Positions 1-9,891 of a stretch of DNA of 64,000 nucleotides are shown here, piece after piece. Below the pieces are notes generated by a model. It saw only the letters and a list, made by a program, of their open reading frames with translations. It was not told where the DNA came from and searched no databases. The position numbers were made by a program, and so were the translations under genes. Source of the DNA: Bacteroidetes bacterium HGW-Bacteroidetes-1 (GTDB lineage Bacteria; Bacteroidota; Bacteroidia; Bacteroidales; F082); assembly GCA_002842755.1 (NCBI GenBank), contig PHDU01000001.1:1-64000 (forward strand). The letters are read 5' to 3'. Within the stretch, counting starts at the first letter, position 1. The number at the start of each line of letters is the position of its first letter.

Positions 1-143
1 TTTAATTACGCAATAAATATAGCATAAATTATCTTATAAATAACAATTATTCTTCAATACTTATCAATTTTTTATTATTGTATATTGATGCTTGTGGAAT
101 GGGTTTTTAGACAGTCTGACGTTTAGCAAGGTTTTTTTTGTTA

Positions 144-491
144 TTAAAACAATTCAAGCTGTTGGGGAGTGCCCGGTCGCTTGGCCGGATCCTGACCACG
201 AAAAAATTCCATCATTCCAAACTGCTTATCCGTCAATGAAAAGAGTATAATTTCCCCGCGGGGAGCAAGAAATGATTTTACCCGCTTCGTATGCACTTCA
301 GCATTTTCGCGATTGCTGCAGTGGCGAACATAGATGGAATATTGCATCATCGTAAAGCCATCCTTTTGCAGATTTTTTCTGAATTGGGCGTAGTTTTTCC
401 GGTCTTTTTTGGTATCTGTTGGCAAGTCGAAAAAAACAAAAATCCACAAAATCTGATACTGATTTAATCGTTTGAAATATGTTTTATCCAA
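144..491 (-). CDS. cas2: CRISPR-associated endonuclease Cas2 (type II)
   Basis: Cas2 pairs with Cas1 as the central dimer of the spacer-integration complex. The 115-residue protein has the first beta strand of the ferredoxin-like fold ending in FFDLPTDTKKDR, where the Asp is the conserved metal-site residue, followed by DGFTMMQYSIYVRHC and ENAEVH, all typical of type II Cas2. There is no ATG ahead of the first strand; the only sensible start is a TTG two bases after the cas1 stop, so initiation probably depends on coupling to cas1. It is the last cas gene before the left edge. The 143 bases downstream are AT-rich and contain no repeat unit, so the array is presumably outside the window. Confidence 0.95.
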   Translation of the reverse strand: MDKTYFKRLNQYQILWIFVFFDLPTDTKKDRKNYAQFRKNLQKDGFTMMQYSIYVRHCSNRENAEVHTKRVKSFLAPRGEIILFSLTDKQFGMMEFFRGQDPAKRPGTPQQLELF

Positions 492-493
492 TC

Positions 494-1399
494 TTAAATT
501 TTTAGCTCAGGATATAATAATTTTCTCGAAGATCCTTCAAAACAGGCAGATAACGACGCTGTTGTGCGCTGCAAACCTACCATGAGCGGACTACTTTTTC
601 CATCAATATCAACATCTATTGCCGGAATTTGCAAAAGCTGCTTTTTGATTTCAGGCGTTAGTTCATCTTGATCAGGAAATCTTTTCACAACCTCAAGAAC
701 AACACGATCAACATAAGGGCGATAGGGCTCCATGATGTCAGAAGCCAGACACCATGGGTTGTATTTGTTGCGATGATGGATGCCTACGGCTGGCAAAAGT
801 CCGCTTGAAACAAGACCACGTGCAACAATGGCTAAAAGTACGGCATATCCATAATTCAACATCGCATTTGGGTTTTCACCTAACCTATCTCTTGAAAATG
901 AACTTTCAGTTCCAAAAAGATTCTCCCAATAGTAAGCTGCTGCACGTCCTTCAACATTTTGCGGGTCACCACTTTTAACCAGCTTCAGGTAATATTGCAT
1001 CTTGCTGTCATTTATTCCCAAACTTCTTAGTATGGCAGCCTGATTGCTGATTTTTGCAATGATAGTTTGCTGCCAAAGGTTCTTTTTTAAAGGCAGAGAA
1101 CATTCAAGCTGTTGATACATTTTTTCGGTAAAAGCATGATGCGCGAACATGGGCAACATCAATCCAAAAGGCAAATGTTTTGCATCGCAACTGATGATAG
1201 CAGTATTGTTTTGATTCAATTCAGCAATCAGCGCATTGGTAAGAGTAATATGCGGGTTGTCCAACACAACAACTCCAACATCTTCGATGGGAATGATAGC
1301 AGGTGGTTTGTTCTCCTTTTCCGGAAAATCAATATGCATCTGCATGTCTTTCTTTTTCAGATAACAAGGATTACCAAAATAAAGGGTGCGTTTTATCAT
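494..1399 (-). CDS. cas1: CRISPR-associated integrase Cas1 (type II)
   Basis: Cas1 catalyses insertion of new spacers into the array. The 301 residues carry the expected metal-binding triad: Glu150 in NVEGRAAAYYW, His208 in GIHHRNKYNPWCLASD and Glu224 in DIMEPYRP. Length and N-terminal beta domain match type II Cas1 enzymes. The start MIKRTLYFGN is duplicated, with only synonymous differences, in a relic near 2264. The gene lies 62 bases downstream of the rayT stop and 2 bases ahead of cas2, so rayT, cas1 and cas2 look co-transcribed with cas9. Sequence of the motif region is intact, so spacer acquisition may be functional. Confidence 0.96.
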   Translation of the reverse strand: MIKRTLYFGNPCYLKKKDMQMHIDFPEKENKPPAIIPIEDVGVVVLDNPHITLTNALIAELNQNNTAIISCDAKHLPFGLMLPMFAHHAFTEKMYQQLECSLPLKKNLWQQTIIAKISNQAAILRSLGINDSKMQYYLKLVKSGDPQNVEGRAAAYYWENLFGTESSFSRDRLGENPNAMLNYGYAVLLAIVARGLVSSGLLPAVGIHHRNKYNPWCLASDIMEPYRPYVDRVVLEVVKRFPDQDELTPEIKKQLLQIPAIDVDIDGKSSPLMVGLQRTTASLSACFEGSSRKLLYPELKI

Positions 1400-1461
1400 T
1401 TTCGTTATAAGTTCTATTTATGAAAAGAATATTAGCAGTTTTATTTTCACAGGTTTTAATA

Positions 1462-2115
1462 CTATGTCAAACCATGACTCTCCGAAAATAATTGAACAGT
1501 TAGTCCCAACTCATTCGCTCTCTTCAAATTACCAAAAACGCACTCACGCTTCCCCATATAGCCGCCCAGGGAAGAAAATTCCCAGTCTTCAGCTTTGGTT
1601 ACCAGCCCTACTTTTATCGGATTGGAATGAATATAGTTGAAACATTGCTGTGGATATTGAAGTTCCCACTTTTCGATGTTAATCATTGTAGCACCGGATG
1701 ATGTAAACCAGTTATGTGCTACTCTACTCGTTTCATTAAGACAGATAGCTTTCGTTTTTTGCCTGAAAAGTGAGCCGGTGCGATTTTCTTGTTTATTAAT
1801 AGCACGGGTATAAGAGGCAAGCATTATTCCGATGGAATGGTTGAAAGAAATTGGTTTGTTGTCTGGGTCATAGATAGTCGGAGTGCGACTTTGAGTCGCG
1901 CCCCGACTATCTATGACGGCATAAAGCCTCTCAACCTCAACCATCAAATGAAAATGATTCGGCATCAAACACCAGGCAAGCAGATTTCCAAATGGAACAA
2001 TATGATTGCATAGTTTATCAACAAAAAACAAATAGTTTTCGCGGCTAAAAAAGATTTTCTGCCGGTTATTTCCCTGGTTATAAATATGGTAGATGCCATT
2101 GCGTTCGAAATTCAT
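1462..2115 (-). CDS. REP-associated tyrosine transposase (RayT, Y1/HUH family) inside the cas operon
   Basis: A 217-residue HUH single-strand DNA nuclease of the IS200-like/RayT family. His54 and His56 in MPNHFHLMV form the metal-binding HUH motif, and Tyr102 in ASYTRAINKQ is the likely nucleophile; GSLFRQK and the C-terminal NYIHSNPIKVGL segment are typical of RayT. Members nick and rejoin REP-type hairpins; most are single-copy and immobile. Residues about 67-83 are encoded by a perfect palindrome (1869-1915) that looks like a REP unit inserted in frame in a loop after the HUH strand. The ATG overlaps the stop of a 50-codon relic of cas1 (ATGA), implying translational coupling. Location between cas9 and cas1 is not standard. 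Confidence 0.88.
   Translation of the reverse strand: MNFERNGIYHIYNQGNNRQKIFFSRENYLFFVDKLCNHIVPFGNLLAWCLMPNHFHLMVEVERLYAVIDSRGATQSRTPTIYDPDNKPISFNHSIGIMLASYTRAINKQENRTGSLFRQKTKAICLNETSRVAHNWFTSSGATMINIEKWELQYPQQCFNYIHSNPIKVGLVTKAEDWEFSSLGGYMGKRECVFGNLKRANELGLTVQLFSESHGLT
1869..1915. repeat. REP-like perfect palindrome within rayT
   Basis: The outer 13-base arms catagatagtcgg (1869-1881) and ccgactatctatg (1903-1915) are exact reverse complements. Inside, gcgact (1885-1890) and agtcgc (1894-1899) form a second hairpin around a ttg loop. The GTCGG/CCGAC foot and GC-rich inner stem resemble REP units recognised by RayT proteins. It preserves the reading frame of rayT and codes for a Ser/Thr/Arg-rich loop. 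Confidence 0.8.
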
Positions 2116-2264
2116 ATCACTGAGATTAATGAGATTGAGATATTTCCGAGACGATCAGTGTTGACTTTGAAGCAGAGATATTGAGCGACTATCAATGATT
2201 TCATAACAAATCTGTGATCCAAACTATACAATTTGTTGCCGAAATAGAGTGTACGTTTTATCAT
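2112..2264 (-). pseudogene. Relic of a cas1 5' end, now a 50-codon leader ORF ahead of rayT
   Basis: Twenty-six bases after the cas9 stop, an ATG at 2264 opens a frame beginning MIKRTLYFGN, identical to residues 1-10 of the intact cas1 at 1399. The two copies differ at six third-codon positions (Arg, Thr, Leu, Phe, Gly, Asn codons), all synonymous. A few more residues (K-L-Y-S-L) could correspond to the usual N-P-x-Y-L stretch, after which similarity is lost and the frame runs through unrelated sequence to a TGA that overlaps the rayT ATG. This position directly after cas9 is where cas1 normally starts in type II-C loci, so it is best read as the stump of the original cas1. Confidence 0.75.
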
Positions 2265-2290
2265 ATAAACAACTGATTAATCAACTTGAA

Positions 2291-5200
2291 TTATTCTCCT
2301 ACCGATACTATATTTCCGCAATGATTAACTCTAACCTTAATAAGGTCTTTTAAATTGGTTGGCGTCTGAATAAAATAATGAGTAATTCCAATTAAGTATT
2401 TCTTTGATTTTAAAGTGTCCCCATCTACAGCTTTTGTTTCAAGATGGTGATTAAAAACATAATTTTTTGTTGAAATTTTCTGAACTCTAAATAAATTAGG
2501 ACTTATGAGAAAGTAATTTTTGGAATCAAGTAAATCTATTTCTTTGGGGTTAAATCCTGTTTTTTCATTTGGAAATACAAAATACTCATTCTGCTTCATG
2601 CTAAACAGGAATTCCCAACCTTCGTCCTTCCTATAATCCTTGTCTATAATAGGCAGTCCCTGATTGACACGCATTGTTGCTTCAAAAAATGAAACGACAT
2701 TTTCCTGTAGAATTCCTTTATCGTCATTATAAATTGCGACATGATGATTGTTGCCTGTATTAACAAAATCAACAGCTTGCTTTTTACCTTCAGTATCCAA
2801 AATAAGAACTCCATCTTTATCTCTTTTGTCGTGTAATGCCACTGCATTATTGATTCCAGTAATGGTTACACGCTTTATTGATATTCCTTTTTCCTCATTC
2901 AACCAGATTGGGTTCTCATCCAAATTTGAAAAAGCTTTTTTACTGTCTCCTCCAAATTCATTCAAACGGACTTGTAATAATTCTCTAATTTTCTTGTCAA
3001 TAACCTTTTCAATTTTCAAATCTGGTGTTATGTCTTTCCTAATAGTATAAATTGTCACTACACCAACAGTTTTTATTTTTTCAGGGACTTGTAGTGTTTG
3101 TAAATCATTCAGGTAAAGCGGATTTTTGTCTAAACTATTCTTACCCGTAAAAGCTTTTTTTGGGTCTTTATCAAACTCAATCAAACGTTTCAAAAGGGCT
3201 ATACGATAGGATTTTTTTGCTACAGTTGCGATTTTCTCTTCATTGAATGCTGATCCTACTTTCTCCATTTTTGAAATAAATCGCTTAATACTACCATAAA
3301 CAGTCTCCAAATGAAGTTGGCCTCTGGGAGTGAGTTGCTTCTTTTTATTTGTTCCGTTTTTTTTATCTGTTTCATTAATATTAATCGTTGCAACTTTATT
3401 TTTAGCCTTGATCGAAATCAAGGTATTTTCCAGATGTTTTTTTGCCTCATATCGAAAATCATTTAAAGGTATTGGCGGTTTAAATTTTAACTTCCCTCTT
3501 TCATCACGATACAGCTCTTTTTGCTCTATTCCGTAAATACTTCCTGCTTTATCGCTTCTAGCATTTAGGTTATTAAGATATTGGATAAAACTTCGTTTTG
3601 TAAAAGCAATAGTTAGAGCATCCATTGCATGATGTCTATGGTCGTTTCTTTTTGTCCAATCTTTAATACGTCTTATTTTATGTCCATCTCTATTTTCAAT
3701 TGTTTCGGTCATGCCAAGCATTTCGAATTTTCCCCAATTCAGCTCCTGCATTACGTCAATCAGTTGCCAATCTTCTCTCAATCGATCCGTTATTGAACCA
3801 GTAGTTGAAATTACTTCTTTAACCAATTCTTCTAAAATTGCTTTAGCTTTTTTTGCTATGTATTGTGAATCTCTGAGATCGCGGGCAATAAAGTCATCAG
3901 GAATATCTTCACCTTTCATCTTAAGCTTATTATATTTCCCTCTGGAAATTTTTCCAGCTTTATACAACTCCTCTAGTCGATCAAGATATTCTATCAATCC
4001 ATTTTGGCCATATTTTGCTAAAACATATTCATAAGCAGTATAGTTCCCTTTATCAATATTTGCCGCCCTAGTTTCAATTGTTTTATTTGAAAAGGAATCG
4101 TCAAAAAGCCTTGATTGAGGTATTATATGTTCAATATCAAATTCTTTACTAAACAACTTTTCCTGCGCAATGTATGTATTAGTATACAACGTTTTGAACC
4201 CTCTGGATTCTAATTCAAGATAAAGTTTGTAGCGTATAATGTCGTTTCTACTAACGTTCGAAATACCAAATTCACTTTGAAGGATTGCACGATATTTCTC
4301 ATGTTCAATTGTTGCAATATTTATAGCATTTGTTAGATCTTCCCTTTCCTTTGCGCTCTTTTTAAGTTCACGTGCCAACTCTATTCTAATCTCATCAGGC
4401 TTTCCATAAGCATCAACAACTGTATTAACCACATTTATCATTTGGTTAATAATTTTCTCTACAACAGGATTACGCAAGCTATTTTTAGGCAAGATTTCAA
4501 GTTTATCTTTTAAGACTTTAGTATCCAGTTCTTCCTTTGTTAACGAACTCTTAGAATGCCGGTATCCTGCATACTTACAAGCTTCACTAAAATCATTTCC
4601 AGCCTTTAAATAGGGTAAAATCTTTCGAATTGCTTTAGAACTTAAACTTCCATAATCCTGCTGGAAACTAACATTTGCCAGAATTACAGCGTATTCCTTC
4701 TCAAAACCAAATAATTCAGTAATTTTATTTACTAATTTTTCATTACCAGTTTTTGAATCGTCTCCTTCATAAGAATACAACAAATGCCAGAATTTATAAG
4801 CTGCTTGCCTTTCAAATTCAATTCCTTCTAATTCTGAATTAAAGAAAAGAATATCTGTATTATAATTTAATCCGGTAAAAATTGATTTTACAGTTGAACT
4901 TATTTGAGCATAATTCATTTTCGAAAAATCGAACTCACCGTGACCAGTTAATTCAATAATCCTGAAGTAAGCTTCAAATAATACTGCTTGAGTTCTATTT
5001 CCTTCAATCTCTTTATAATTCAGGTCAAGTTCTATTGGGTTAGCAAATAAAAGTTTTAATACATCCGCCTTTGTAAGCTTATTTTTCAGAGTCAATTCTT
5101 TGAATAATAAATCTTTTTCTTCCTGATCCAATAGTCTTCTTTTATTGTTATTTTTTTCAAATACTTCAAGATTATTGAGAATTTGCCAAATTTTAAACTC

Positions 5201-6433
5201 CTGAAATAATGGTGATGATTTCGGGCACACTTTAAAACCAACTGTTCTTTTCTTCTTCTTTCCATCAACTAAGATCTCAATTTGTCTATTTTCGAATTCA
5301 CAAAAACCGATAAGACCTTTTTGACTTTTTAACCTTCTCTGATAAAAAATAATAATATTCCTTACTTCATGTTTCAATTCAGGTGTAAGTTTCTCATGAA
5401 ATGTTGACTGCTTTTCCCAGATTACATCAAACTCATCTAAATAATCCTGGCGGTAAAAAACTTGATTTTTTAATCGGGTATGAGAATTCATTTCCAATTG
5501 TGACATTAGATATTGCCCGACAGTCAGTTTATTAAAATAAAGTTCTTTACTTCTATCACTAATTGAGCCCAAATAGCCACTAGAACTGTTTAAGTTGGTA
5601 TTAATTTCAGTAATTACATACGCTGCTTCTTCTTTTAGTAATTGAGAATCTATTGCTTTACTTCTCCATTTATAGGCTTGTAACCTTTTTTCATCCCTAG
5701 TATTCTTGTTTTCAGCAATGTTAAAACCAAACTTTTTCCAAAAAGCTGCGGAGGTAACTCTTTGTCCCTTTCCTTCAATTTCATTTCTGAATTCTTTTGT
5801 AAATATTTCAGGATAAAACTGCGACTGAAAGTTCCACACCCTACCAAATTCGGATATTAAATCTGACCTGTAGAAATCAGGTACATGTTTTTTATTCTCG
5901 AGAAGTAACCCTAAAACTAACTGACCGGGAGTCAGATTTTCATCATAAAGTTTTTTCGCAATACCCATTCCGTCAATCAATTGTCCTTCTTCTTGATTTT
6001 TTGCTTTACGACTGCTCTTATATCCGCGTTTTTTGTTGATCATTAGCAATACACGAGCAAATTCTGACAATGAAATTTCTTCTGTTGCTGCTCTCGCTCT
6101 TAGTCTGTAAGTTTCAAAAGTGCTCCTATTTCCGTTTTCCGAAAAAGTAGTATCATCACTTACAAGGCCATTAATTCTAAGAATTTCTATAAGGTTTTCT
6201 CTCCGGAGCTTATATCGTTGAAGATTCCTACGCATACTCCTTTTAAGAGTTCTGTCAGCAGTTGTAGTTATGCTTTTACCTCGTTCAAAATTTGATTGCT
6301 CATCAACAGTCAAAGGATTTACTCTAACTCCAAGTTTAACTATCGAAGATTGTTCGGTATTATTTTCTGCCTCATTTACCAAAGCCCAACCAATACTGTT
6401 GGTACCTAAATCAAGTCCTAAAATTTTTTTCAT
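2291..6433 (-). CDS. cas9: CRISPR-associated endonuclease Cas9 (type II-C)
   Basis: RNA-guided double-strand DNA nuclease, 1380 residues, in the size range of the large Bacteroidota type II-C enzymes. RuvC-I has Asp8 in GLDLGTNSIGWAL; an Arg-rich bridge helix follows (about residues 55-85); RuvC-II has Glu685 in IRIELARELKKS; HNH has His769 in DIEHIIPQS with Asn783 and Asn792 downstream; RuvC-III has His935 and Asp938 in HHAMDA. All catalytic residues are present, so cleavage activity is expected. The C-terminal ~350 residues form the PAM-interacting region and show no motif I can assign. A divergent tracrRNA lies about 40 bases upstream. No clear cas9 promoter box is visible on the minus strand; transcription may begin upstream of the tracrRNA. 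Confidence 0.98.
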   Translation of the reverse strand: MKKILGLDLGTNSIGWALVNEAENNTEQSSIVKLGVRVNPLTVDEQSNFERGKSITTTADRTLKRSMRRNLQRYKLRRENLIEILRINGLVSDDTTFSENGNRSTFETYRLRARAATEEISLSEFARVLLMINKKRGYKSSRKAKNQEEGQLIDGMGIAKKLYDENLTPGQLVLGLLLENKKHVPDFYRSDLISEFGRVWNFQSQFYPEIFTKEFRNEIEGKGQRVTSAAFWKKFGFNIAENKNTRDEKRLQAYKWRSKAIDSQLLKEEAAYVITEINTNLNSSSGYLGSISDRSKELYFNKLTVGQYLMSQLEMNSHTRLKNQVFYRQDYLDEFDVIWEKQSTFHEKLTPELKHEVRNIIIFYQRRLKSQKGLIGFCEFENRQIEILVDGKKKKRTVGFKVCPKSSPLFQEFKIWQILNNLEVFEKNNNKRRLLDQEEKDLLFKELTLKNKLTKADVLKLLFANPIELDLNYKEIEGNRTQAVLFEAYFRIIELTGHGEFDFSKMNYAQISSTVKSIFTGLNYNTDILFFNSELEGIEFERQAAYKFWHLLYSYEGDDSKTGNEKLVNKITELFGFEKEYAVILANVSFQQDYGSLSSKAIRKILPYLKAGNDFSEACKYAGYRHSKSSLTKEELDTKVLKDKLEILPKNSLRNPVVEKIINQMINVVNTVVDAYGKPDEIRIELARELKKSAKEREDLTNAINIATIEHEKYRAILQSEFGISNVSRNDIIRYKLYLELESRGFKTLYTNTYIAQEKLFSKEFDIEHIIPQSRLFDDSFSNKTIETRAANIDKGNYTAYEYVLAKYGQNGLIEYLDRLEELYKAGKISRGKYNKLKMKGEDIPDDFIARDLRDSQYIAKKAKAILEELVKEVISTTGSITDRLREDWQLIDVMQELNWGKFEMLGMTETIENRDGHKIRRIKDWTKRNDHRHHAMDALTIAFTKRSFIQYLNNLNARSDKAGSIYGIEQKELYRDERGKLKFKPPIPLNDFRYEAKKHLENTLISIKAKNKVATININETDKKNGTNKKKQLTPRGQLHLETVYGSIKRFISKMEKVGSAFNEEKIATVAKKSYRIALLKRLIEFDKDPKKAFTGKNSLDKNPLYLNDLQTLQVPEKIKTVGVVTIYTIRKDITPDLKIEKVIDKKIRELLQVRLNEFGGDSKKAFSNLDENPIWLNEEKGISIKRVTITGINNAVALHDKRDKDGVLILDTEGKKQAVDFVNTGNNHHVAIYNDDKGILQENVVSFFEATMRVNQGLPIIDKDYRKDEGWEFLFSMKQNEYFVFPNEKTGFNPKEIDLLDSKNYFLISPNLFRVQKISTKNYVFNHHLETKAVDGDTLKSKKYLIGITHYFIQTPTNLKDLIKVRVNHCGNIVSVGE

Positions 6434-6439
6434 ATTGTA

Positions 6440-6469
6440 TTGACTTTTGAGTTTTTGATCTTATATTTG
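6440..6469 (+). promoter_or_regulatory. Promoter of the tracrRNA
   Basis: TTG at 6440-6442 and a perfect TATATTTG (TAnnTTTG -7 box) at 6462-6469 are separated by 19 bases, the Bacteroidota spacing. Predicted transcription start is about 6475, exactly at the beginning of the anti-repeat. It lies inside the short gap upstream of cas9, facing away from it. Confidence 0.75.
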
Positions 6470-6474
6470 CATCA

Positions 6475-6548
6475 CAATCTAAAGCAATTCACAATAAGGA
6501 TTATTCCGTTGTGAAAACATTTAAGGCGGGGTAACTCGCCTTTTTTTT
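6475..6548 (+). ncRNA. tracrRNA of the type II-C CRISPR system
   Basis: A ~74-base transcript is predicted between a promoter and an intrinsic terminator. The 5' part caatctaaagcaattcacaa (6475-6494) is the anti-repeat; its complement ttgtgaattgctttagattg fits the GTTGTGA-TTGCTTT start of repeats I recall from Bacteroidota type II-C arrays. Then comes a small hairpin region around aaggattattcc, the segment gttgtgaaaacattt and the terminal hairpin aaggcg...cgcctt followed by eight T. It should pair with the crRNA repeat to load Cas9. The array itself is not in the window, so complementarity cannot be confirmed here. Confidence 0.85.
6523..6548 (+). terminator. Intrinsic terminator / 3' hairpin of tracrRNA
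   Basis: Stem aaggcg (6523-6528) pairs with cgcctt (6537-6542) around gggtaact, and runs into T8. It serves as the 3' hairpin of the tracrRNA and as its terminator. Confidence 0.85.
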
Positions 6549-6838
6549 GTTGATAATCCAATAGCAAACTTCTGAGCATAAAAAAATACTCCACAACACT
6601 TCAGCGTGTTGTATTTTCAGAATCGCATTCAGCGCCATACATTGTAATAGTATCATCTGGTCACTATTTGTTGTTCATCAATAATTCCGCCCATTATTTT
6701 ATGCAGCAACCAGCCGATGATTTGAAGTTCGAAAGATAAATAAATTTTTTATTATTTGTAAAAAAAATGATCATTTAAAAATGATGATATTGTATAGTTC
6801 GATTTATATTCTAACATTCTATCATCTTCCCACTCCAA
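6549..6838. other. Gene-free spacer between tracrRNA and hydrogenase operon end
   Basis: Apart from a 7-bp hairpin, acaacac (6593-6599) with gtgttgt (6606-6612), I see nothing coding. Any promoter for cas9 should lie here or in the tracrRNA gap, but no CAAAnnTA (minus-strand -7 box) is found. Frames on the minus strand overlap the terminator at 6845-6873 and are not convincing genes. Confidence 0.5.
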
Positions 6839-6873
6839 CAAAAAATCCCGAAGACTATAAAAGTCTCCGGGAT
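6839..6873 (-). terminator. Intrinsic terminator of the hydrogenase operon
   Basis: Arms atcccgaagact (6845-6856) and agtctccgggat (6862-6873) pair over 12 bases with one G-U, and on the minus strand are followed by a six-T run. It lies about 60 bases after the last gene of the operon. Confidence 0.85.
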
Positions 6874-6932
6874 CATACTCAAAAAAAATTTGGTCGGGCC
6901 TTGCGGCAAAAAAAAAATAATATAAAAAAATG

Positions 6933-7910
6933 TTATTCAAAGTTCTTTTTCATGTACTGTAGTCTTTCAAAACCTGCAGTGTTTTCAGGATATTTGTTTA
7001 CAAGACCTCTGAAGTCTTCTATGTTGCTATAGCCTTTCTTCTTCATCCAGTCGGAAAGACCATTCACAATTTCACGCAGATATGGAATGCCGTTTTGATA
7101 TAAAGTAGTGCAAACCTGCGTTACGGTAGCACCTGCAAGAAGCTGTTTAGCAACACCTATTGAATAATGGATGCCTGTTGAAGCAGCAATATCTGTCGGG
7201 ATACCGCTTGCTGTAAGAAGAGCGATCCAACGCAATGAGATTGACTTTTCATCCGGATTCGAAAAAACATTGTCCGTCACAACTTTTGCTGTGGCAATAT
7301 CCACATCAGGGTTGTAAAAACGATTGAATAAAACAAGCCCATCCGTACCTGCTTCTGCCAACCGGTATGCCATTGCATAGATGTTGGTAAAATACGATCC
7401 CATTTTTACTGATACAGGAATCGTCACTCTTTCCTTCACACTAGTCAGAATTTCTATATAAGTATCTTCTATCTGAAGACTGGATACATTTCTATCAAAC
7501 GGGAAAATGGCAATATTAAGCTCAATTGCATCCGCTCCCGCGTCCTGAAGCTTGGCAGCAAAATGAGTCCACCCAACAGGGCTCACACAGTTAACGCTTG
7601 CAATCACAGGAATTGATACAGCTTTTTTTGCCTCTGTGATAAGACGAAGATAATCCTCAACGCCAGCCCCTTTTGATATGTTCATCACAAATTCGGATGC
7701 TTCGGGATACCAGAAATAAAGTTCATTCTTACGCAGGTTTGTTTCGATTCTGGCATTGATTTGTTCTTCAAACAGTGATTTAAGTACAATTGCCCCGGCT
7801 CCTGCTTTTGCACATGCCTTAACATTTTCAATGTTTCCGGTCAGCTTGGAACTGCTAACCACAATAGGATTCTTTAAATTTAACCCGAGATAAGTTGTTG
7901 ATAAATCCAT
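6933..7910 (-). CDS. Dihydroorotate-dehydrogenase-like flavoprotein at the end of the hox operon
   Basis: A 325-residue TIM-barrel FMN protein of the DHOD family. The N-terminus MDLSTTYLGLNLKNPIVVSSSKLTG, the strand containing GAGAIVLKSLFEEQI, VIASVNCVS, and the C-terminal phosphate-binding GLVLFNRF and GIHYSIGVAKQLLAGA region follow the class. In true dihydroorotate dehydrogenases the strand after AIELN carries the catalytic Cys or Ser (ELNxSCPN); here it reads ELNIAIFPFDRN, with no such residue, so pyrimidine synthesis is unlikely. The gene follows the hydrogenase protease by 20 bases and precedes the terminator, so it belongs to the operon. A role as electron partner or reductase linked to the hydrogenase is inference only. 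Confidence 0.8.
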   Translation of the reverse strand: MDLSTTYLGLNLKNPIVVSSSKLTGNIENVKACAKAGAGAIVLKSLFEEQINARIETNLRKNELYFWYPEASEFVMNISKGAGVEDYLRLITEAKKAVSIPVIASVNCVSPVGWTHFAAKLQDAGADAIELNIAIFPFDRNVSSLQIEDTYIEILTSVKERVTIPVSVKMGSYFTNIYAMAYRLAEAGTDGLVLFNRFYNPDVDIATAKVVTDNVFSNPDEKSISLRWIALLTASGIPTDIAASTGIHYSIGVAKQLLAGATVTQVCTTLYQNGIPYLREIVNGLSDWMKKKGYSNIEDFRGLVNKYPENTAGFERLQYMKKNFE

Positions 7911-7930
7911 TTTCTGTTATTTTAAATTCT

Positions 7931-8434
7931 TTAATTTTCTGTCGTCAATGCATTGATAAGAGTCAACGGCTGTTTCGTCAAAAGAAAAGGTTTAAAAAAA
8001 TCAAATGCCATTTCAAGGTTTTCTTTTGCCTTTTCCGACATTTCTTCTTTAAAATCCCATTCGTATCCTTTGATGTGAATCAGCCAGGCTATGGGTGTAA
8101 CACCATATATTTTTCTGCAAAGATCTATTACAAATGAAGGGGATACTGCATGCATTGAAAATTCAACCCTTGCGTCTGAGGCATCAACTTCCGATAATGA
8201 GAAGTGTTCAATATTTTCTTCCTGTGATGCATCTACGAAAACCACAGCCGTTGCTTTTGATACCGTATCAGCATCTTCAATGTTCAATTGATAATTACAA
8301 TCGGTAACGATATGATGTAAAGTATTTTGTATGATAAAATCATCTACTTTCTGGATAAAAGCAGCACCCAGACCATCATCCTGACGACCCGGGTTACCAT
8401 ATCCATAAATCAGTATTTTATCTGAATCTGTCAT
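7931..8434 (-). CDS. hoxW: Hydrogenase maturation protease (HoxW/HyaD family)
   Basis: Cleaves the C-terminal extension of the nickel-bearing large subunit once the active site is assembled. The N-terminal GYGNPGRQDDGLG carries the first conserved Asp/Glu-type nickel ligand, AVVFVDAS the second Asp, and SMHAVSPS the His. The motif HIKGYEWDF is typical of proteases acting on group 3 enzymes. I chose the ATG at 8434, two bases after the hoxH stop, rather than the upstream TTG; this gives 167 residues. The intimate linkage to hoxH indicates that this is its substrate. Confidence 0.88.
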   Translation of the reverse strand: MTDSDKILIYGYGNPGRQDDGLGAAFIQKVDDFIIQNTLHHIVTDCNYQLNIEDADTVSKATAVVFVDASQEENIEHFSLSEVDASDARVEFSMHAVSPSFVIDLCRKIYGVTPIAWLIHIKGYEWDFKEEMSEKAKENLEMAFDFFKPFLLTKQPLTLINALTTEN

Positions 8435-8436
8435 TC

Positions 8437-9891
8437 TCAATGGGATCTTTTTCGATCAATAACCTGTTCGTTGTGATCAAGTAATGTTATTTCAAGTGGC
8501 ATTTTACCCAATGCATGCGTAGCGCAACTCAAACAAGGATCATAAGCACGAATTGCGACTTCAACTGCATTCATCATAGGTTCAGTAATTATCTCCTTGC
8601 CTGTCATAATTTTTTTTGCAACAAAATTTACCGAACGGTTCATCGGCTCATTGTTGTTGGTGGTAGATACGATCAGATTAGCCATTTCAATCTGATCATT
8701 ATCATTTATGCGGTAATGATGGAATAAGGTGCCACGGGGAGCTTCGATAACACCAACACCTTCTTTAATTTTTTGGCCCTTTGTAACGAGGTCATCACCC
8801 ATAATTTCAGGGTCGTTGAGCAACTCGCGGATCATTTCAGCTGCATGAAGTGTTTCAATTAAGCGGGCATAGTGCATATGCAAGCAATGGTTATTTGGCT
8901 TTCCATTCGTCAAAGCTTTGTATTTTTCGAACTCAGCCTGTGCCAGTGGTGTTGGGATGAAATCGATAGTATTCAAACGGGCAAGTGGGCCAACGCGATA
9001 CCAACCTTTTTCTTTTCCGTATTCTTTGAGGTATGGAAACTTCATATAACTCCAGCTCCGCACTTCCTCTTCAATATAATTGGCGTATTCCTGGCAATCT
9101 ACATCATTGAGTATTTTCTTCCCATCAGCGTCAACAGCGCGAAGCACCCCATTGTACAAGTCAAGAGCACCGTCTTTTCTGACAATGCTCAGATGATTAC
9201 TTGGGAAAAACGCAAAATTGTCGATAAAATCTTTATTGGCAAAATAGTATTTCTTGAAGAAATCCAGTGCCTCTTCTGCCCAGGATACCATCTTGTCCGC
9301 ATTGAGCGGGTCAGCACCTTTCAAAAACTCATCCCGTTCTTCAATTGAAAGGCTTTTATTGATTCCACCAGGAATGGCTCCGGTTCCGTGAATTTTTTTC
9401 CCGGCTGTGGCGCGGATTATTTCCTGTCCAAATTTACGCATCATTACGCCTTGAACAGCCAATGCAGGATTGGTGAGTGCTATACCTATGATATTCCGGA
9501 TGGCCGGATCACCATCAACTCCAAAGAGAAAATCAGGAGCACTGAGATGGAAAAAGTGCAAGGCATGAGATTGGAAAAACTGACCATAATGCATAAGCCG
9601 ACGCATTTTTTCTCCAGTACGCGTCAATCCTTCTCCGGTACCTGCGCCAACAATTACATCCAAAGCTTTTGCTGCTGCGAGATGATGACTAACCGGACAA
9701 ATTCCGCACAAACGTTGCACAAGAACCGGCGCTTCCCAATAGGGTCTTCCTTGCACAAAACGTTCAAATCCGCGGAATTCAACAATATGCAATCTGCTTT
9801 GCTGGATGTTTCCTTGTTCATCCATTAGAATGGTTACCTTTCCGTGACCTTCGACACGGGTTACAGGTTCTATGGTAATTTTTTTAGACAT
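8437..9891 (-). CDS. hoxH: Bidirectional [NiFe] hydrogenase, large (catalytic) subunit HoxH
   Basis: Carries the Ni-Fe site that interconverts H2 with protons and electrons. The N-terminal ligand pair is Cys62 and Cys65 in RLCGICPVSHH; the C-terminal pair is Cys453 and Cys456 in DPCLSCATHALGKMP. About 24 residues follow His459 and would be removed by the protease encoded next. The 484-residue length and the motif pattern fit the NAD(P)-linked group 3 (HoxH-like) enzymes rather than membrane uptake hydrogenases. It is transcribed after hoxY with an 18-base gap. None of the hyp genes for Ni-Fe cofactor assembly lies in the window. Confidence 0.95.
   Translation of the reverse strand: MSKKITIEPVTRVEGHGKVTILMDEQGNIQQSRLHIVEFRGFERFVQGRPYWEAPVLVQRLCGICPVSHHLAAAKALDVIVGAGTGEGLTRTGEKMRRLMHYGQFFQSHALHFFHLSAPDFLFGVDGDPAIRNIIGIALTNPALAVQGVMMRKFGQEIIRATAGKKIHGTGAIPGGINKSLSIEERDEFLKGADPLNADKMVSWAEEALDFFKKYYFANKDFIDNFAFFPSNHLSIVRKDGALDLYNGVLRAVDADGKKILNDVDCQEYANYIEEEVRSWSYMKFPYLKEYGKEKGWYRVGPLARLNTIDFIPTPLAQAEFEKYKALTNGKPNNHCLHMHYARLIETLHAAEMIRELLNDPEIMGDDLVTKGQKIKEGVGVIEAPRGTLFHHYRINDNDQIEMANLIVSTTNNNEPMNRSVNFVAKKIMTGKEIITEPMMNAVEVAIRAYDPCLSCATHALGKMPLEITLLDHNEQVIDRKRSH

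Follow-up and report, generated by a model that had tools for sequence, protein, structure and literature searches.

At one end of a 64,000-nucleotide stretch of Bacteroidota DNA (the window; C162:1–64000), a type II-C CRISPR-Cas locus encodes the peptide MIKRTLYFGN twice on the minus strand, once as the start of intact cas1 (1399) and once from the ATG of a 50-codon ORF behind cas9 (2264), with a transposase-like gene, rayT, lying between the two. What does the second start record, and which part of the locus came from elsewhere? A first-pass annotation, right in every detail about the two starts and their six third-position differences, took them as the outcome of recombination between two type II-C loci, with rayT-cas1-cas2 as the imported part. 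Recombination is well supported by the cas1 stump behind cas9 and by strongly discordant Cas9 and Cas1 trees, but its direction was probably the reverse, as a Cas9-B-like tail within the ORF, the promoter, the repeats and parallel tails in loci L069 and L089 point to cas9 as the part that moved.

Organization of the locus

All cas genes lie on the minus strand, with only rayT and the 50-codon ORF, hereafter the scar ORF, between them. They comprise cas2 (144–491, 115 aa; Pfam CRISPR_Cas2, 7e-20; TIGR01573, 1e-20), which is 82–84% identical to cas2 of the loci nearest in Cas1; intact cas1 (494–1399, 301 aa; type II Cas1 model TIGR03639, 286.6 bits); and a type A cas9 (2291–6433, 1380 aa; TIGR01865 (Csn1/Cas9), 499.4 bits). 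HNH_4 and RuvC_III domains are found in Cas9, and the type II cas1 and cas2 have neither csn2 nor cas4 beside them, the far side of cas2 being cut by the contig end; this is the gene content of type II-C. Divergent from cas9, a tracrRNA is predicted on the plus strand (6463–6548, ends estimated), with an anti-repeat, an invariant core and a terminator; the core, AAGCAATTCACAATAAGGATTATTCCGTTGTGAAAACAT, is nearly identical across loci with type A, type B and some type O Cas9. An Rfam scan of positions 1–8000, tracrRNA region included, returned nothing.

The contig starts (1–30) about where the CRISPR arrays of relatives begin, ~1.35–1.38 kb past the cas1 start, which corresponds to positions ~20–50 of the window. 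Array repeats of this genome are found on a separate contig, C179, from 28838 to the contig end, which falls inside the array. They were located with a repeat pattern taken from relatives, most of whose array repeats end in GAAAGCAATTCACAAC or a similar sequence; an exact search with the anti-repeat gave only the anti-repeat itself. The C179 repeats fit in sequence the window's tracrRNA-like sequence, with its conserved core upstream of cas9, and we infer that this array belongs to the window's cas locus.

Two former cas1 starts

The scar ORF (2112–2264, minus strand) opens with codons 1–10 of cas1 (2235–2264), which would derive from the donor of cas9, and closes with a TGA that overlaps the ATG of rayT (ATGA). 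The 26-nt spacer between the cas9 stop and this stump (2265–2290) resembles the distance that natively separates cas9 from cas1 in A-type loci, which is 14, 27, 58 and 63 nt in L041, L076, L120 and L044, respectively. Over their 30 nt, the starts at 1399 and 2264 differ at six sites, 6/6 of which are third codon positions; when six random substitutions were simulated in these codons, all six were synonymous with P ~ 4e-5. A profile built from the Cas1 N-termini of other loci scores the relic at 25.6 bits; the region's highest-scoring dinucleotide shuffle among 5000 reaches 10.5 bits, and no other real peptide from a six-frame translation of the window exceeds 8.3 bits. A cruder control over all loci, made by a greedy shuffle with plain-shuffle fallback and showing outliers, as opposed to the proper dinucleotide shuffle of the window control, brought 1/26,949 shuffled peptides to 19.7 bits, still below the relic. 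Judged by codon pattern and profile score, the stump at 2264 is a genuine former cas1 start, which bears out the earlier view that both copies were once real. The closest donor candidate for the stump, L105, is identical at 28/30 positions, a match too short to carry much meaning.

The same class of scar has arisen in an independent lineage: in the isolate Flavobacterium rhamnosiphilum LB3P52 (L119), the end of cas9 overlaps a cas1 start of 27 codons, after which come a Y1 transposase gene and intact cas1, the two cas1 starts differing at 12 sites, 12/12 of them third positions. This parallel bears on whether the window is an assembly chimera of two organisms' loci. The source genome, probably a metagenome bin, is fragmented (195 contigs) with a contamination of 3.6%, which would leave room for such an artefact; an isolate with the same scar class speaks against it, as does the exact identity run between the window's two cas1 starts, which is only 11 nt and would have given a k-mer assembler little reason to join there, so that a chimera is scarcely credible.

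Hardly better are the prospects of a transposon insertion that duplicated the cas1 start, either as a target duplication or by bringing along a copy of cas1 within the rayT element. A Y1-type transposase gene does stand between the copies, and L129 has both a duplicated cas1 N-terminus and palindromes near its rayT. In the window, however, the six differences are synonymous only, and the probable Cas9 tail that separates the stump from rayT (see below) would go unexplained; moreover, among loci with a transposase in the gap, a second cas1 start occurs only in the window, L119 and L129, and IS200/IS605-type elements are not known to make a target duplication. In L129 itself, the second start extends over ~65 codons between rayT and cas1, with differences that are not only synonymous and palindromes near both copies, perhaps the product of palindrome-mediated duplication.

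A probable Cas9-B tail behind the stump

Two features of the scar ORF are absent from the first-pass annotation, namely the ATGA overlap with rayT and the character of its last third, CFKVNTDRLGNISISLISVI, which resembles a Cas9 C-terminus. The tail CFKVNTDRLGNI compares with the tail CWKLKTDRLGNI of long type B Cas9, of which CWKLKTDRLGNIIQVTR (L040) and CIKLRVDRLGNISL (L063) are example C-termini; the window's own Cas9, which is of the other type (A), ends in KVRVNHCGNIVSVGE. With a Cas9-B tail profile the relic scores 17.0 bits; none of 5000 dinucleotide shuffles scores as high (maximum 12.6 bits), and real peptides from the rest of the window reach at most 6.6 bits. The match spans 12 residues (about 2139–2174) and is separated from the cas1 stump by 20 codons; the putative remnant as a whole, CFKVNTDRLGNI followed by SISLISVI, occupies 2112–2174 on the minus strand. 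In the cruder all-loci control, one tail score among 26,949 shuffled peptides reached 17.9 bits, so that the probability of a chance tail hit among the ~1,000 peptides surveyed is a few per cent. Taken alone, the match is good but not overwhelming, and much weight is carried by its position, by the ATGA overlap with rayT and by the parallel in L069; on this combined basis, the tail is probably the C-terminal end of a lost Cas9-B.

Parallel remnants are found in other loci. L069, whose cas9 is of a third type, has a Cas9-B tail (KAVCWKLKVDRLGNITQFIR, 50.7 bits) between that gene and a window-type rayT; in L089, the Cas9-B tail LKTDRLGNITI (18.0 bits) comes directly after the stop of a Cas9-A gene; and in L118, a Cas9-A tail (34.0 bits) stands behind a different Cas9. 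Relics of Cas9 N-termini, also sought in the cas9-cas1 gaps, gave nothing above controls. The stub in L118 is followed, in the place of rayT, by an ORF (8814–9233) that weakly matches (0.0014) a family of anti-phage proteins, and some other gaps between cas9 and cas1 (L116, L128, L020, L024, L027–L029) are filled by longer ORFs of ~280–340 codons.

A DNA search of the scar region against its own genome found no second copy, and the scar is therefore not a dispersed repeat. The idea that the ORF tail is a Bacteroidota intergenic repeat was dropped, given this lack of a genomic copy and the way in which Cas9 C-termini line up with the tail.

An open frame whose stop overlaps the start of rayT, as in coupled genes, could also suggest a functional small gene, for example one for a leader peptide through which translation of rayT is coupled to cas9. 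That is very unlikely for an ORF whose two ends match unrelated proteins, the N-terminus of Cas1 and the C-terminus of Cas9; nor does any of the relatives examined have it as an intact short gene, in keeping with its earlier description as a leftover.

Which part of the locus moved

Quick trees with SH-aLRT support were made for Cas9 and Cas1 from 49 loci. Types A, B and O are clades of the Cas9 tree (support 98–100), in which the window groups with L061 and L089, the latter 73% identical to it; in the Cas1 tree, the window belongs to a clade with L060–L064 and L036. Explaining the distribution of Cas9 types over the Cas1 tree takes 22 changes, of which well-supported branches force 13 or more for A and for B, and the types cluster no more than shuffled labels do. 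AU tests, for groups picked after the trees were seen, reject a clade of the window, L061 and L089 in Cas1 (p 5.7e-8) and the placement of the window with its Cas1 clade in Cas9 (p 2.0e-9). Across this locus set the Cas9 and Cas1 trees are discordant; the congruence that the first-pass annotation had named as fatal to a recombination was not found.

The boundaries of the exchanged unit emerge from L103 and L114, whose Cas1 proteins differ by 1.7% and whose Cas9 proteins differ by 69%. Their DNA is nearly identical from the tracrRNA core across the promoter to ~nt 38 of cas9, diverges over the rest of the gene and becomes alike again shortly past the stop, indicating that the unit on the move is essentially the cas9 gene. 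Correlations covering 42–59 loci show the array repeats to follow Cas1 (partial Mantel r 0.71) and not Cas9 (0.08), and likewise the stretch from tracrRNA to cas9, which holds the promoter (0.41 and 0.00); the anti-repeat, too, mostly goes with Cas1 (0.43 and 0.14). Exchange of Cas9 with retention of the rest of the CRISPR locus is thus recurrent across Bacteroidota.

In the window, the 45 nt that precede cas9 (6434–6478) are closest to those of L063 (identity 0.89), followed by L036 (0.74) and L060 (0.72), all three being Cas9-B loci of the window's Cas1 clade. One exception to the pattern of flanks following Cas1 is the 3' hairpin of the tracrRNA, a variable part, which in the window resembles that of A-type loci L061 and L064 and over the locus set correlates weakly with Cas9 (partial r 0.115), so that the move may have included some of the tracrRNA. 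This hairpin excepted, the sequence flanking the window's cas9 belongs, by these similarities, to the Cas1 lineage, and promoter, rayT, cas1, cas2 and array repeats look resident.

These observations weigh on the reading that cas9A and its cas1 stump are old and that rayT-cas1-cas2 came from another lineage. The junction by itself has no direction, and a cas1 stump behind cas9 fits an import of this kind; yet the promoter is closest to those of Cas9-B loci from the Cas1 clade to which the window belongs, repeats and promoter follow Cas1, and the array repeat of this genome is of the Cas1-clade type. Also contrary to it are a Cas1 tree that sorts by host taxa where names are known (such as Flavobacterium and Cyclobacteriaceae) and the parallel Cas9-B tails of L069 and L089. 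An imported adaptation module is accordingly improbable and already disfavoured. Most likely, cas9 was the incoming gene, a polarity based on the 45-nt promoter and on relatives rather than on a host tree.

In a separate observation, the Cas9-B genes of L095 and L106, and those of L114 and L119, are 92–98% alike at nt 76–200 and 58–62% alike, near background, in their last 200 nt; perhaps the C-terminal, probably PAM-interacting, part was exchanged alone.

A transposase-like gene between cas9 and cas1

The rayT gene (1462–2115, minus strand) encodes a 217-residue protein resembling REP-associated tyrosine transposases, in which the HUH (NHFH) and tyrosine (YIHSNP) motifs are intact. It combines the HUH motif and a single catalytic tyrosine with a REP-like palindrome inside the gene, and its score against NCBIfam REP_Tyr_transpos (NF047646; 7e-13, 48.7 bits) lies below the curated cut-off of 80; cas-linked RAYT-like homologues, with motifs mostly intact, reach 50–65 bits and are likewise below. 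The palindrome (1867–1917) is an in-frame insertion with 24-nt arms that are 92% complementary. In-frame insertions of REP-like palindromes or repeats are seen at the same part of rayT in L069, L073, L089 and the window, and L069 also has near-identical palindromes on both sides of the gene.

Homologues of rayT occupy the same position in L069, L073, L089, L141, L143–L147, L151, L154 and L166, and an intact Cas9-B precedes a window-type rayT in L073, L141, L143–L146, L151 and L166. More broadly, a Y1/RAYT-type gene is found in the cas9-cas1 gap of 33/94 distinct loci, a figure that does not count independent events, since some of these loci share descent; in 34/34 rows (one locus appearing twice) the gene has the orientation of the cas genes. 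These gap transposases (L035–L139 and the window) fall into several different RAYT/IS200 groups. When RAYT homologues were sampled without regard to cas genes, 11 of the top 30 for the window's rayT (itself included) proved to lie near cas1, as did 11/30 for another RAYT type. Cas-linked and free RAYTs are intermixed in the RAYT tree, which argues for several gains or losses, and other members of the window's Cas1 clade have another rayT type or none, so that the window's rayT may be a separate arrival. In L038, repeated RAYT-like fragments lie upstream of an intact RAYT gene (~ −1000 to −740 before cas1), as if the unit had been duplicated.

To account for the scars, it is enough that rayT be a bystander, a spacer that tolerates sloppy joins. 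A more active part for rayT and REP, in which Y1 transposases of one orientation break DNA here and type II-C loci act as exchange platforms, with cas9 as a cassette between constant cas9 and cas1 starts, is conceivable but doubtful.

Proposed course of events

The ORF at 2264–2112 is, with good probability, a scar that formed when cas9A and the first codons of its own cas1 replaced a resident cas9B, of which the last codons remained. A Cas9-like tail after the cas1 stump implies that, to the right of the join, the locus once read cas9B-rayT-cas1-cas2, and the full ancestral order would have been tracrRNA / cas9B - rayT - cas1 - cas2 - array. The donor would have been a locus with cas9A directly abutting its own cas1, whose DNA displaced cas9B. 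The left join may lie at the very start of cas9 or close by, where types A and B encode much the same MKKILGLDLG and could have offered homology; this placement, inferred for the window, is directly visible in pairs of Flavobacterium loci. On the right, the join would fall at about codon 10 of the donor cas1, tied non-homologously to the last codons of cas9B; joining cas1 to a cas9 tail, it is not a crossover at matching positions. Such a sloppy right end would have been harmless, and kept, because rayT and its spacer separate cas9 from the resident cas1. Finally, the near-constant half of the repeat and the shared tracrRNA core plausibly present a constant guide interface, through which a foreign Cas9 could work with the resident guides. 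The order of these steps, the mechanism of joining and the function of the hybrid system are proposals drawn from sequence comparison.

A variant of this replacement of cas9B by cas9A, in which cas9 is still the changed part and the route differs, starts from tandem loci, cas9A-cas1A-cas2A-cas9B-rayT-cas1-cas2, and removes everything from codon 10 of cas1A to the end of cas9B in one deletion. A single step would then account for a join that is non-homologous, keeps both sides in one orientation and leaves the genes flanking it intact. This route is possible though unlikely: no complete tandem pair was noticed in the gene maps of ~95 loci, which were viewed for other purposes, and a Cas9-B-type promoter to the left of cas9 is not given by tandem insertion itself.

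Comparison with known systems

The scars are physical fossils of Cas9 exchange, which elsewhere is mostly inferred from trees, and they show the cas9 gene to be the moving part and promoter, tracrRNA core, cas1-cas2 and array to be fixed. Replacing Cas9 would probably also alter PAM recognition and so provide a fast answer to phage escape; a second question is posed by the transposase gene that recurs within the operon. In the literature searched, an incomplete body with few subscription journals, nothing was found on residual cas1 starts and Cas9 tails or their recurrence, on Cas9 exchange this broad over fixed Cas1 and repeats, or on RAYT/Y1 genes in the operon between cas9 and cas1.

The kind of event is itself already known from Flavobacterium psychrophilum, in which Fp1Cas9 was replaced by Fp2Cas9 between tracrRNA and cas1 (PMC10309648). 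According to the portion of that report available to us, cas9 was likewise swapped in a Bacteroidota type II-C locus and other parts were kept, whereas the case concerns a single species, the donor is thought to be another Flavobacterium, homologous recombination is proposed, and a leftover cas1 start, a Cas9 tail and rayT do not figure in that portion. RAYT / TnpA-REP subclass 2.4, whose hosts include Bacteroidetes, has in-frame REP insertions inside the gene (PMC6006769), and the window's rayT resembles it in such an insertion and in encoding a Y1 HUH transposase; CRISPR is unmentioned there, whereas here the gene recurs between cas9 and cas1. With type II-C CRISPR-Cas systems in general, the locus shares the order cas9-cas1-cas2, a divergent tracrRNA and 46-nt repeats, and it differs in having rayT inside the operon and a scar ORF behind cas9.

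In their study of how Cas9, dual-RNA and Cas1 co-evolve, Fonfara et al. (PMC3936727) found Cas9 and Cas1 trees to agree largely, with exchange confined to Cas9s that are closely related. Both studies have in common that type II loci are transferred horizontally and that repeat-tracrRNA pairing limits exchange. The present locus set does not bear out that tree agreement and runs counter to the restriction of guide sharing to closely related Cas9s: in it, Cas9s of deeply separated types, ~70% different, take turns beside Cas1, repeats and a tracrRNA core that are nearly identical, and, if the hybrid loci are active, natural Cas9s that far apart should accept one common guide scaffold.
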